This document shows positions 1,222 to 64,000 of a stretch of 64,000 nucleotides of DNA, in pieces (position 1 is the stretch's first letter; each line of letters opens with the position of its first letter). The position numbers and the translations under genes are program-made. Source of the stretch: Bacteroidetes bacterium RIFCSPLOWO2_12_FULL_37_12 (GTDB lineage: Bacteria > Bacteroidota > Bacteroidia > 2-12-FULL-37-12); assembly GCA_001769655.1 (NCBI GenBank), contig MEPC01000020.1, forward strand, positions 138,516 through 202,515, given 5' to 3'. The notes beneath the pieces were generated by a model, which was not told the origin of the DNA, ran no database searches, and was given only the letters and a program-made list of their open reading frames with translations.

Positions 1222-1300
1222 TACAAGTGGAATCCAGAACCCACGTTAAAAAACGGGGCAAACCGAAAAGCCATAACAGTTGGAAAATTTAATTCAAAAT
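1222..1300 (+). promoter_or_regulatory. Candidate structured leader RNA, copy 1
   Basis: Three blocks here recur in the same order in front of the next gene: one around AAGTGGAATCCAGAACCCAC (1225-1244), one around ACGGGGCAAACCGAAAAGCC (1253-1272), and one around GTTGGAAAATTTAAT (1279-1293). GTGG and CCAC of the first block can pair. Between blocks 1 and 2 a small CGTT/AACG hairpin can form (1244-1254). The element ends next to the ATG at 1304. It is unlike any riboswitch class I can name. Confidence 0.5.
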
Positions 1301-1303
1301 AAA

Positions 1304-3370
1304 ATGAAAACGCTACAAAAATCAATTTTAATCGCAACGCTCGCCTTTGGCTTGAGCAATGTTGCAAAGGCGCAATGGGTATGGCAAAATCCTTTGCCCC
1401 AAGGCAATGAATTGTTATCAGTTTATTGTACTGATTCCAAAACCGGGTACGCTGTTGGAAAAAACATACTTAAAACAAATGATGGTGGTACTAACTGGAC
1501 AATTTCTACAAATCCGACAACCCGTACTTTATTATCTGTTTATTTTGCAAATGTCAATACAGGTTGTGCGGTTGGAGAGAGCGGAACAATTCTTAAAACA
1601 AGCAATGCTGGTGCAAACTGGAATATTCAAACAAGTGGAACAAGCAATGATTTATTCTCCGTTTATTTTGCCAATGCTAATACCGGGTATGCTGTCGGGG
1701 AAAAGGGAACGATTCTTAAAACAAGTGATGCTGGTACTAATTGGGTAAAACAAACAAGTGGGACATCTGACGATTTATTCTCCGTTCGTTTCTCCGATGC
1801 AGATACCGGATACGCTGTTGGTGAGGGGGGCACAATTCTTAAAACAGGCAATGGTGGTGTCATTTGGATAGCGCAAACAAGCGGGTCTAATAATGACTTA
1901 TTTTCAGTTTATTTTACTAATGGTAAAACTGGGCATGTTGTTGGAGAAAAAGGAACGATTCTTAAAACAAGTGATGGAGCAATTACCTGGACAAATCAAC
2001 CAAGTGGGACAAGTAATGATTTATTTTCAGTTTACTTCACCGGTGCAAATTCCGGTTGTGCTGTTGGTAATGGAGGAACAATTTTAACTACAACGGATGC
2101 CGGCACAACCTGGACAGCACAAACAAGCGGAACAATTGAAAGGTTAAATTCAGCTTATTTTGCAGATGCCGCCATAGGTTATGCTGTTGGAAATATTGGA
2201 ACAATTATTAAAACAAATGATGCCGGAACAAACTGGTCAGCAAAAATATCAACCGTAACAACAAATCAATTGGAATCTGTACATTTTACCGATGCTAATA
2301 ATGGTTGTGTGGTTGGAGATTTTGGAACAATCCTTACAACTTCTAATGGTGGCACTGATTGGACATCACAAACAAGCGGTACAACTAATAAGTTATTTTC
2401 AGTTTTTTATACTGATGCAAATACCGCCTACACAGTGGGAGACAATGCCACTTTACTTAAAACCGTTGATGCTGGTGTTACATGGACAGCGAAACAAGTA
2501 ACAGGTGTATCTGGTAATAGTTTTAGATCCGTTTATTTTACAGATGTCAACACAGGGTATGTTGTTGGCAGTGGAGGAATTATTCTAAAAACAAGCGACG
2601 CAGGCACTAACTGGGCATGGAAGCAATCTACATCGCTTTATAATTTAAATTCTGTCTGGTTCCCAAATGTCAATACTGGTATTGCAGTTGGGGTCTATGG
2701 TGAAATTTTAATAACTAATGATGCTGGCACTATCTGGACAGATTTAACTGCCCCAATTTTATCCGATTCATATAATTCCGTTTATTTCACAGATGCCAAT
2801 ACCGGGTACATTGTTGGTAATAATACCAGTGATGGTATAATTTTAAAAACTACAGATGGCGGTACAACCTGGGTAGCACCTACAAGCGAAATAGTTATGA
2901 AGTTAGAATACGTTTATTTCACAGATGCCAATACCGGTTATGCAGTTGGTTGGACTGGAAATATTTATAAAACAACCAATGCCGGTACAAACTGGTCATT
3001 ACTACCAAACATAACAAACCAAAATTTACAATCCGTTCATTTCACCGATTCCAATACCGGTTACGCTGTAGGCAAGCAAGGAACAATTCTTAAAACAACG
3101 ACCGGAGGGTTGGTAAATATTAATTTTAATTCCAATTATGATTATGATTTTAAAATTTACCCCAATCCCACCAATGGTAAATTTGCCATCGGTTTAAATA
3201 GCAAGATCATTATCGCAGAAATTTACAATTTGCTGGGAGAAAAAGTTTATCAGCAATATTCCTCTCACGAAAATCCGCAAATTGATATTTCCAACTCTAC
3301 AAAAGGGATGTATTTTGTAAAAATTTATGATGGGATAAAATCCTACAATCAAAAAATTATTGTACAGTAA
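1304..3370 (+). CDS. T9SS-secreted YCF48/BNR-like beta-propeller protein
   Basis: The protein has a Sec signal peptide (MKTLQKS... cleaved after KAQ) and about a dozen repeats of roughly 44 residues. Each carries the pattern SVYFTDANTGYAVG...GTILKT.DAGTNW, typical of Ycf48-like/BNR beta-propeller blades. The C-terminal ~85 residues are a T9SS type A sorting domain (YPNPTNGKF... GMYFVKI... QKIIVQ). The frame is open back to a TTG at 1280, but the ATG at 1304 puts the signal peptide at the N-terminus, so I chose it. It should be carried to the outer membrane, cut by PorU-type sortase and attached to the surface or released. Ligand unknown. The gene shares its leader with the next gene, which suggests common control of the two. 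Confidence 0.9.
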   Translation: MKTLQKSILIATLAFGLSNVAKAQWVWQNPLPQGNELLSVYCTDSKTGYAVGKNILKTNDGGTNWTISTNPTTRTLLSVYFANVNTGCAVGESGTILKTSNAGANWNIQTSGTSNDLFSVYFANANTGYAVGEKGTILKTSDAGTNWVKQTSGTSDDLFSVRFSDADTGYAVGEGGTILKTGNGGVIWIAQTSGSNNDLFSVYFTNGKTGHVVGEKGTILKTSDGAITWTNQPSGTSNDLFSVYFTGANSGCAVGNGGTILTTTDAGTTWTAQTSGTIERLNSAYFADAAIGYAVGNIGTIIKTNDAGTNWSAKISTVTTNQLESVHFTDANNGCVVGDFGTILTTSNGGTDWTSQTSGTTNKLFSVFYTDANTAYTVGDNATLLKTVDAGVTWTAKQVTGVSGNSFRSVYFTDVNTGYVVGSGGIILKTSDAGTNWAWKQSTSLYNLNSVWFPNVNTGIAVGVYGEILITNDAGTIWTDLTAPILSDSYNSVYFTDANTGYIVGNNTSDGIILKTTDGGTTWVAPTSEIVMKLEYVYFTDANTGYAVGWTGNIYKTTNAGTNWSLLPNITNQNLQSVHFTDSNTGYAVGKQGTILKTTTGGLVNINFNSNYDYDFKIYPNPTNGKFAIGLNSKIIIAEIYNLLGEKVYQQYSSHENPQIDISNSTKGMYFVKIYDGIKSYNQKIIVQ

Positions 3371-3482
3371 TATACAAGTGGAGTCCAGAACCCACTTCAC
3401 CCCATTGAATAATTTTATAACCAAGGGGTAAAAAAACGGGGCGTAACCGAAAAGCCACACGAGTAGGAAAAATTTAATATAT
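3371..3482 (+). promoter_or_regulatory. Candidate structured leader RNA, copy 2
   Basis: This fills the whole gap between two T9SS genes, from just after the stop at 3370 to the ATG at 3484. The blocks at 3374-3395 and 3434-3457 match copy 1 almost base for base. The spacer between them is longer and holds an ACCCC...GGGGT stem (3399-3429) where copy 1 has a short CGTT/AACG stem. Conserved flanks around a variable-length hairpin look like a folded RNA rather than a protein-binding site. Confidence 0.5.
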
Positions 3483-3483
3483 A

Positions 3484-5208
3484 ATGAAAATGAAAAATAA
3501 AGTTGTTTTAGTAATAATCTTGCTTGCTTTAATTAGCTTGGGATTTTCAGCAAACCATAGTTTTTGCCAATCAGTCCAATGGGCTAAAGCCATTGGCGGA
3601 ACACTTGATGATAATGGTTTCTCCATCACGACAGATGTTTCCGGAAATGTTTATACTACTGGAACTTTTGAGGGAACTGTTGACTTTGACCCGGGTTCAG
3701 GAATATACAATTTAACAACTTCGGGCATTAGAGTTTTTATATCTAAATTAGATGCTGACGGAAATTTTCTATGGGCTAAAGTTTTAGATGGCTCCTCTAC
3801 TACTGAAAGTTACTCTTTATGCATAGACGCTTCAGGTAGTGTTTATACTATTGGTTATTTTGGTGGAATTACGGACTTTGACCCAGATTCAGCAACCTAC
3901 AATTTGACTACTTCCGGATTTAAGGACATTTTCATTTCCAAACTTTCTGCTGACGGAAATTTTCTATGGGCTAGGAATTTTGGTGGAACATCTGATGATT
4001 TTGGTTACTCCATCACCACAGACGATTCAGGTAATGTTTATACCACCGGAACTTTTAAGGGAACTGCTGACTTTGATCCGGGTACGGGAACCTACAATTT
4101 AACTTCTGCGGGCGACTTTGACATTTTCATATCCAAACTAGACGCTAACGGAAATTTTCTATGGGCTAAAACTATTGGAGGAACCTCTATTGATCAAGGT
4201 TATTCTGTAGACACAGACGCTTCGGGCAATGTCTATACCACTGGTTATTTTTATGGAACTGCGGACTTTGACCCAGGCACAGGAACCTACAATTTAACAT
4301 CAGCCGGAAAAGAGGACATTTTCATTTCTAAACTTTCAGCTGAAGGAAATTTTCTTTGGGCTGTATTTATTGGTACAACAAGTACAGACATTGGTTACTC
4401 AATAACCATTGATGCTTCAGGAAATGTTTATTCCACTGGTTCTTTTAAAAATACAGTTGACTTTGACCCAGGTACAGGAACATACAATTTAGTATCTAAT
4501 GGTGGCAGTGACGTTTTTGTATCCAAACTAGATGATTCCGGAAATTTTCTATGGGCTGCTGCCATGGGCGGACAAAGTGGTGATGTAGGTAATTCCATAA
4601 CCGCAGACAAATCTGGAAATGTTTATACTACCGGTTATTTTTCGGGAAGTGGGGACTTTGATCCGGGTGTGGAAACATACAATTTAAGTTCAACATCCAG
4701 CTTCCAACAAAGTTTTGTTTCCATACTTAATACTTCCGGAAATTTTCAATGGGCAGGGGCTATGAATGGAACAAAAAGTATTATTAGCAAATCTATCGCC
4801 GTAGATTCTTTGGGAAATGTTTTTACTACCGGCTCTTTTATAGATTCTGCAGACGTTGATCCGGGTGTAGGAACATATTATTTAACCTCGGGGGAATCTG
4901 ACGAAAACATTTTCATTTCTAAATTATCTAAGATTACGACTGGCTTAATGGAAAGTGTTTTCGAAAATAATTTTGTGATTTATCCTAATATCAGTGCAGG
5001 TAAGTTTCGGATACGGGTACAAAATAGTGCTTCTGTTAAGTTTTTAAGTTTGGATATTTACAATATTCTTGGAGAAAAAATCTACTCCATAGAAAATATC
5101 AATAAAACTAACATAGAAATAAACCTTAGCTATTATTCCAAGGGTATATATTTTGTAAAAATTAATGATGGAATGAAAAATTACCATCAAAAAATTATTG
5201 TACAGTAG
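3484..5208 (+). CDS. T9SS-secreted SBBP-repeat protein
   Basis: The N-terminus is a signal peptide (MKMKNKVVLVIILLALISLGFSANHSFCQ). Nine or so repeats of about 50 residues follow, with the pattern DASGNVYTTGYF.GTADFDPGTGTYNLTS...DIFISKLSA.GNFLWA, the signature of SBBP (beta-propeller) repeats. The last 80 residues form a T9SS type A sorting domain (VIYPNISAGKF... YYSKGIYFVKIND... HQKIIVQ). It is probably a cell-surface or released adhesin-like protein. Its C-terminus is very like that of the gene before it, and both share the leader element, so they look like a co-regulated pair. Function beyond export is not predictable. Confidence 0.9.
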   Translation: MKMKNKVVLVIILLALISLGFSANHSFCQSVQWAKAIGGTLDDNGFSITTDVSGNVYTTGTFEGTVDFDPGSGIYNLTTSGIRVFISKLDADGNFLWAKVLDGSSTTESYSLCIDASGSVYTIGYFGGITDFDPDSATYNLTTSGFKDIFISKLSADGNFLWARNFGGTSDDFGYSITTDDSGNVYTTGTFKGTADFDPGTGTYNLTSAGDFDIFISKLDANGNFLWAKTIGGTSIDQGYSVDTDASGNVYTTGYFYGTADFDPGTGTYNLTSAGKEDIFISKLSAEGNFLWAVFIGTTSTDIGYSITIDASGNVYSTGSFKNTVDFDPGTGTYNLVSNGGSDVFVSKLDDSGNFLWAAAMGGQSGDVGNSITADKSGNVYTTGYFSGSGDFDPGVETYNLSSTSSFQQSFVSILNTSGNFQWAGAMNGTKSIISKSIAVDSLGNVFTTGSFIDSADVDPGVGTYYLTSGESDENIFISKLSKITTGLMESVFENNFVIYPNISAGKFRIRVQNSASVKFLSLDIYNILGEKIYSIENINKTNIEINLSYYSKGIYFVKINDGMKNYHQKIIVQ

Positions 5209-5349: not shown

Positions 5350-5532
5350 CCGTAAACCCAATGACAGTTATTGGCTAAATCAATACTTTATTATATACAT
5401 TTAGCCGGAAACCCAATGGCAGTTATTGGCTAAATCTATACTTTATTACATACATTTAGCCGGAAACCCAATGGCAGTTATTGGCTAAATCTATACTTTA
5501 TTACATACATTTAGCCGGAAACCCAATGGCAC
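5350..5532. repeat. 55-bp tandem repeat, three units plus a partial fourth
   Basis: Units begin at 5350, 5405, 5460 and 5515, exactly 55 bases apart. The second and third are identical, the first differs at a few bases, and the fourth stops after about 18 bases. Each full unit contains GGCTAAAT ... ATTTAGCC, an 8-bp perfect inverted repeat with an 18-base loop. The array can therefore fold into a row of hairpins. Confidence 0.9.
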
Positions 5533-8734: not shown

Positions 8735-8784
8735 ACTGATAAATAATGGGTATAGTAAGATTTTTATGGGTTACTACAGAACTA

Positions 8785-8884
8785 TCTGGTTTGAGTATGT
8801 AGCCAAGCTGGTGTGATAGGTACTTAAACCCAAAGTGAGGTTTAAGTCGCAACCACATTAGCTGGGCTACTGACTTAAACCAGA
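8785..8884. repeat. 100-base imperfect palindromic element
   Basis: The 25-base arms at 8785-8809 and 8860-8884 pair with four mismatches. Inside lies a second perfect 9-bp hairpin, ACTTAAACC (8822-8830) with GGTTTAAGT (8839-8847). The whole forms a long cruciform or stem-loop in the gap between two paralogous genes. It resembles a REP- or MITE-type element. No ORF is inside. Confidence 0.75.
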
Positions 8885-8909
8885 ACGTGCACCTTTAATA
8901 TTTAAAACC

Positions 8910-8931: not shown

Positions 8932-8943
8932 TACAACAAACGC

Positions 8944-9010
8944 CCTATACCCCTATACCCCTATACCCCTATACCCCTATACCCCTATACCCCTATACCC
9001 TATATCCCTC
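8944..9010. repeat. (CTATACCC)n octamer repeat, G-quadruplex-capable on the - strand
   Basis: About seven tandem copies of the 8-mer CTATACCC end only a few bases before the ATG at 9014. On the - strand this gives GGGG tracts separated by TATA, a standard quadruplex pattern. Related arrays lie at 12628-12670 and at the end of the window. Confidence 0.9.
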
Positions 9011-12565: not shown

Positions 12566-12670
12566 CAGGTATAAAGGTATAGGAGTATAAGGTATAAAGG
12601 TATAGCGAAAATGTAACTTTATTCACTCCCTATACCCTATACCCTATACCCTTATACCCTTATACCCTTC
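12566..12670. repeat. Inverted pair of octamer repeats (GGTATAAA)n / (CCCTATA)n
   Basis: Four or five GGTATA(A/G)-type units (12566-12606) face C-rich units CCCTATA/CCCTTATA (12628-12670). The two arms can pair into a long imperfect stem. The C-rich arm has six CCC runs (GGG on the - strand) and ends one base before the ATG at 12672. Confidence 0.85.
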
Positions 12671-63904: not shown

Positions 63905-64000
63905 TAACATAAAACATAAAACACAAAATGATTAATGTTAAACGAAAAACCCCTCAATACCTCTATACCTCTATACCTCTATACCCCTATACCCCTATAC
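63905..64000. repeat. Heptamer and octamer repeats at the window end
   Basis: ACATAAA units (63907-63930) are followed by CTATACCT and CTATACCC units from about 63956 to the end. The C-runs again give GGGG on the - strand. The array may run on beyond the window. No gene is seen after 63816. Confidence 0.75.

Follow-up and report, generated by a model that had tools for sequence, protein, structure and literature searches.

Two leaders before T9SS genes belong to the DUF805 RNA family, whose covariation suggests two pseudoknots in tandem shortly before the start codon

The window, i.e. the whole 64-kb stretch of DNA analysed here, contains two leader RNAs of a catalogued family, DUF805 RNA, which comprises cis-acting 5' UTR elements of Bacteroidota (Rfam RF03081, type cis-reg, clan CL00115). 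Comparison of about 230 leaders in total suggests that the RNA consists of two H-type pseudoknots in tandem. Judging from its position relative to the start codon, the leader probably controls translation initiation of the single downstream gene, a reading to which we assign a probability of roughly 60%.

Copy 1 is located at positions 1222–1289 and copy 2 at positions 3373–3473 of the window, both on the forward strand. They obtained cmscan scores of 61.4 and 54.5 bits, respectively, compared to a gathering cut-off of 51.1 bits, and were the only two matches above cut-off when the whole window was scanned against Rfam. Both matches are full length, with E-values for the 64-kb window of 8.5e-9 (copy 1) and 3.6e-7 (copy 2). 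When aligned with MAFFT, the two copies show a mean column identity of 81%; copy 2 carries an insertion of 32 nt, and the remaining differences are few and small. The blocks in common (1222–1283 and 3373–3467) have the same order and strand, as stated in a preliminary description of this DNA, and the bit scores and E-values of both copies against RF03081 place their likeness far beyond chance. The same description considered the element undescribed, which is refuted by the matches to RF03081 above cut-off and by the existence of the related family RF02914. DUF805 RNA is said to have been described in a paper from 2017.

Each leader is followed by a protein gene on the same strand. The distance between leader and AUG, measured between the final G of GUAGG and the start codon, is 20 nt for gene 1 (1304–3370, ATG 1304) and 16 nt for gene 2 (3484–5208, ATG 3484). 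The start of gene 1 is most likely ATG 1304 and not TTG 1280, which was given in the list of open reading frames. Gene 1 codes for a YCF48/BNR-repeat protein (PF14870) and gene 2 for an SBBP-repeat protein (PF06739), both with a T9SS sorting domain (PF18962). The two T9SS genes had been described as non-identical, which agrees with these assignments; since their bodies differ, they are not simple copies of one another. Copy 2 was also correctly described as filling the gap between the genes: it begins 3 nt past the stop codon of gene 1 (TAA 3368–3370) and is followed by ATG 3484. A DUF805-domain gene, the source of the family name, was not found downstream of either window copy. Such genes were observed behind only 9 of 138 and 9 of 111 leaders, so that they are not family-defining.

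The gene ahead of copy 1 (104–1066) features an in-frame TGA at 311–313. A similar protein lacking this stop is also encoded by the genome, behind another DUF805 leader (C19:40418–40485, in L128), and due to the TGA, which is absent from the C19 protein, the gene in the window looks like a pseudogene. Further downstream, the window contains a 55-bp tandem repeat (5350–5531; 3.3 copies, 96% matches) with inverted ends TTAGCC/GGCTAA and no long open reading frames around it. Intergenic tandem repeats of 7–8 bp are located at 8943–9009 (CCCTATAC), 12628–12668 (CCCTATA) and 63952–64000 (CCTCTATA). A long imperfect hairpin on the reverse strand (8783–8886), which matches a miRNA family only weakly and well below cut-off, is possibly a terminator or a small mobile element.

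The interpretation of the leaders as a folded cis-acting RNA, already put forward in the preliminary description, is supported by the Rfam family and by compensatory changes in the stems and in two loop contacts across 43 families. These families are represented in alignment A1 with 110 leaders. In a prior-free covariation scan of A1, the column pairs 14-39 and 50-68 ranked high besides the known stems P1 and P2, with 15-38 and 49-69 adjoining them. The four pairs constitute two contacts, PK1 (CC of loop 1 with the GG ahead of stem 2) and PK2 (CC of loop 2 with the GG of GAGUAGG). For P1, P2, PK1 and PK2 together, 93.1% of the cells in A1 are paired. Changes on both sides were found in 101 cells compared to 21.1 in shuffled alignments, and none of 500 shuffles reached the observed number, although this control is inflated by kinship among the sequences. 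Slid controls were all far lower, with pairing of at most 52% after a slide by one column. For the four loop-contact pairs alone, 93.8% of cells are paired, with 48 double changes against 11.7. Individual families also contain two-sided changes, indicating repeated events: 11 families for pair 50-68, 6 for 42-56, 5 for 14-39 and 3 each for 49-69 and 15-38.

A second sample comprised 120 further sites, which were picked by the 3' core pattern after removal of near-copies of A1. The pair 50-68 was C-G in 90 sites, U-A in 16, U-G in 12 and C-A in 2, corresponding to a standard pair in 118 of 120 (Fisher p 1.2e-10); as the pattern fixes C 49, Y 50, R 68 and G 69, the test of PK2 is here one of association between C/U and G/A only. 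PK1 was paired in 67 of 68 sites at each position.

Based on the covarying loop contacts, the data suggest two H-type pseudoknots in tandem, in which the CC of the P1 loop pairs with the GG before P2 and the CC of the P2 loop with the GG of GAGUAGG. With just 2 bp each and partly near-invariant letters, PK1 and PK2 might also represent loop contacts with a different geometry. A pseudoknot between CGG 37-39 and CCG 49-51 was rejected based on column counts, because changes at 38 or 39 are unmatched at 49-50. The window leaders resemble RF03081 in sequence, in the stems P1 and P2, in their place before genes and in their occurrence in Bacteroidota. However, PK1 and PK2 are missing from the covariance model of RF03081, which can hold just P1 and P2.

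Both P1 and P2 are able to form in the two window copies. In copy 1, P1 (1227–1244) pairs GUGG 1227–1230 with CCAC 1241–1244 around the loop AAUCCAGAAC and P2 (1257–1272) pairs GGC 1257–1259 with GCC 1270–1272, both according to the Rfam alignment; P1 covaries in A1 and P2 corresponds to columns 40-42/56-58. PK1 (1234–1256; columns 14-39 and 15-38) would connect C1234 and C1235 of the loop with G1256 and G1255, and PK2 (1263–1283; columns 49-69 and 50-68, also in the further sites) C1263 and C1264 with G1283 and G1282. In copy 2, P1 is extended (3376–3397) and pairs AAGUGG 3376–3381 with CCACUU 3392–3397, as judged from the sequence and the minimum free energy fold, whereas the Rfam alignment sets the 3' arm further on. 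P2 (3440–3456) is formed by GGC 3440–3442 and GCC 3454–3456 of the same columns in the Rfam alignment. By homology with A1, PK1 of copy 2 (3385–3439) would pair C3385 and C3386 with G3439 and G3438 and span an inserted hairpin; PK2 (3447–3467) would pair C3447 and C3448 with G3467 and G3466. Folding of the single sequences is unremarkable (z values of -0.62 and -0.95), as expected with short pseudoknotted helices.

The inserted hairpin of copy 2 (ACCCC/GGGGU, 3399–3429) lies between P1 and P2, has a length of about 30 nt and is forced into P1 by the RF03081 model. A hairpin specific to each copy had been proposed before, which holds for this insert. The second proposed hairpin, CGTT/AACG in copy 1, is present as letters, but lacks conservation across the family and needs G1255, which in the model of the family is paired with the P1 loop (PK1). 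Analogous extra hairpins between P1 and P2 were found in leaders of several other genomes, where the loop is complementary to the letters right before P2 (UUCGC/GCGAA, UUCCAUU/AAUGGAA, CUUGU/ACAAG, CUGU/ACAG and others). Two-sided changes were observed in all five pairs of this contact, with only 70% of cells paired due to unequal loop lengths. For the inserted hairpin of copy 2, no clear loop contact was found. Extra-hairpin leaders, most of them below the Rfam cut-off, are also present in clusters of PixA, DUF1842 and DUF1843 genes (L064, L088, L090 and L119), where a separate leader precedes each of several genes.

DUF805b (RF02914), a family of the same clan, corresponds to the 3' unit alone, a GGC-loop-GCC hairpin followed by GAGUAGG. 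It has no 5' hairpin, and its consensus includes the PK2 letters CC and GG. A diverged leader in front of another T9SS gene of the window's genome (C4:27750–27838) resembles RF02914 below cut-off (21.4 compared to 35.6 bits).

The preliminary description had proposed a search of Bacteroidota genomes and a test for covariation; the family turned out to be widespread, with covarying stems and loop contacts. The window's genome features seven copies at RF03081 level. A model built in this study added two diverged copies, the one at C4:27750–27838 and a weaker one at C19:33831–33892. RF03081 was found above cut-off in 24 of 60 relatives from the class and in 55 of 396 genomes from the phylum; in total, 69 of the 396 genomes of the phylum sample gave matches. 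The search at order level yielded matches in the window's own genome only. The number of leaders per genome ranges from one to eight. In named genomes, the 3' core pattern matched at least 120 stretches, nearly all from Bacteroidota, together with a few from Ignavibacteria and one from a MAG labelled Sphingomonadales. In the 60 relatives, 36 matches to the pattern were listed, compared to none for the reversed control. A phage origin was rejected, with a single 3' core match in viral contigs.

The genes headed by the leaders are diverse and include DUF805, TM2, PixA, DUF1842/1843, AHSA1, aquaporin, rhodopsin and outer-membrane barrel genes, among others. A tie to T9SS genes, as formerly assumed, was found in the window's genome, but not elsewhere. 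T9SS genes follow five of its seven Rfam-level copies (six of eight with the diverged C4 copy), compared to 150 sorting domains listed for its 3.9 Mb, which we estimate at roughly 4% of genes. One of the five copies (in C19) adjoins a broken gene. In other genomes, T9SS genes were found behind 9 of 134 leaders and in the second sample behind at most 1 of 111. Both values are within the background of the relatives (a few per cent), and a general enrichment was thus rejected; the over-representation is local to the window's genome. A remnant leader followed by a broken gene with a T9SS sorting domain was observed in C19 (L128, 6007–6067, reverse strand). It seems that duplication and loss in this genome affected leaders and pieces of T9SS genes together, as units.

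The distance between leader and AUG is conserved, with a median of 20 nt and 140 of 148 leaders within 15–29 nt; the median in the second sample was again 20 nt. The spacer is A-rich at positions -3, -6, -12 and -13, which were reported as initiation determinants in Bacteroidia not using Shine-Dalgarno pairing, and ribosomes of Bacteroidia conceal the anti-Shine-Dalgarno sequence (PMC9976891). Counts of the -7 promoter element (TAnnTTTG) upstream of the leaders were scattered without a fixed distance, and leaders may follow the upstream gene directly, as is the case for copy 2. The approximately 20 nt between leader and AUG leave scant room for an intrinsic terminator. Since the leader is tied to the start codon rather than to a promoter and there is little space for a terminator, we infer an effect on translation initiation. 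The two small hairpins would follow each other in series, the CC loop of each pairing with the GG just 3' of it. The last pairing partner would be located about 21 nt before the AUG, where the upstream edge of the 30S footprint is expected. A folded block that forms or opens beside the start region may then control translation initiation; alternatively, the block may be bound by the ribosome or by an RNA-binding protein. The constant distance to the AUG would also fit an mRNA-stability element. Since no pathway is common to the downstream genes, the signal cannot be guessed from them.

The leader might instead be bound by a global RNA-binding protein or a small RNA, through which a stress or envelope regulon would be controlled at the level of translation or mRNA stability. 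The targets, diverse and frequently membrane or secreted proteins, would be in line with such a function, as would the copy number of one to eight per genome and the high conservation of unpaired letters. However, no candidate partner was identified, and we regard this alternative as rather unlikely.

The near-invariance of many unpaired positions (AAAAAC, GAAAA, GAGUA) might also be explained by a small-molecule or ion riboswitch, i.e. a tandem-pseudoknot aptamer whose ligand exposes or hides the start region. Compact H-type pseudoknots before the AUG are typical of translational riboswitches such as preQ1, SAM-II and SAM-V, in which, by analogy, a hairpin loop pairs with nucleotides further downstream that closely precede the start codon. 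In contrast to these, the DUF805 leaders have neither a known ligand nor a Shine-Dalgarno sequence to hide. They gave no sequence match to these riboswitches above cut-off, with PreQ1 and SAM-II at chance level for one variant leader. No metabolic theme is common to the DUF805, TM2, AHSA1, PixA/DUF1842, aquaporin, rhodopsin and T9SS genes, and Rfam lists the family as cis-reg and not as riboswitch. Taken together, we consider a riboswitch improbable.

A function as DNA element (promoter, operator or recombination site) is very improbable. A few leaders do lie inside cassette-like units flanked by attC-like repeats, but these are only a handful, orientation and AUG distance are fixed whereas a promoter at fixed position is absent, and the interleaved pairs covary. 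Attachment sites were rejected as an explanation, with attC-like ends near 7 of 142 leaders and 9 of 140 control windows, i.e. at control level. Inside the cassettes, the leaders adjoin gene starts and are separate from the attC-like repeats. IntI-like integrase matches below the curated cut-off were obtained in all ten genomes tested, but also in all 14 control genomes. In L148 and L149, the cassette-like unit between attC-like repeats contains a leader and a small DUF378 gene. The repeats of L148 (115–239 and 787–911) have a length of 125 nt and are 100% identical; those of L149 are located at 63–121, 943–1001 and 2496–2554. Several other leaders were found near contig ends.

Copy 1, copy 2 and the C19 copy are close paralogues, more similar to each other than to the remaining copies in the genome, with flanking letters in common, and the window copies derive in part from duplication inside the genome; that upstream DNA was merely duplicated along with two paralogous T9SS genes and lacks a function is nevertheless hardly credible, as similarity is not confined to two paralogues and the element, with compensatory changes, is found ahead of unrelated genes across many families of Bacteroidota, and as a complete explanation, duplication is refuted by this distribution and covariation.

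The window thus adds two further copies to a known RNA family of unexplained function. The two loop contacts account for its invariant CC and GG letters and link DUF805 with DUF805b, and the structural model turns a presumed cis-regulatory element into one for which concrete point mutations can be named. We tentatively suggest that DUF805 and DUF805b may form one modular class of tandem pseudoknots, with an invariant 3' pseudoknot about 20 nt before the AUG and at least one exchangeable 5' pseudoknot. Such a class could serve Bacteroidota as a portable element for the control of translation that in some cases travels on mobile gene cassettes. In a phylum with ribosomes that disregard Shine-Dalgarno sequences, it would place a fold at a set distance before the AUG.
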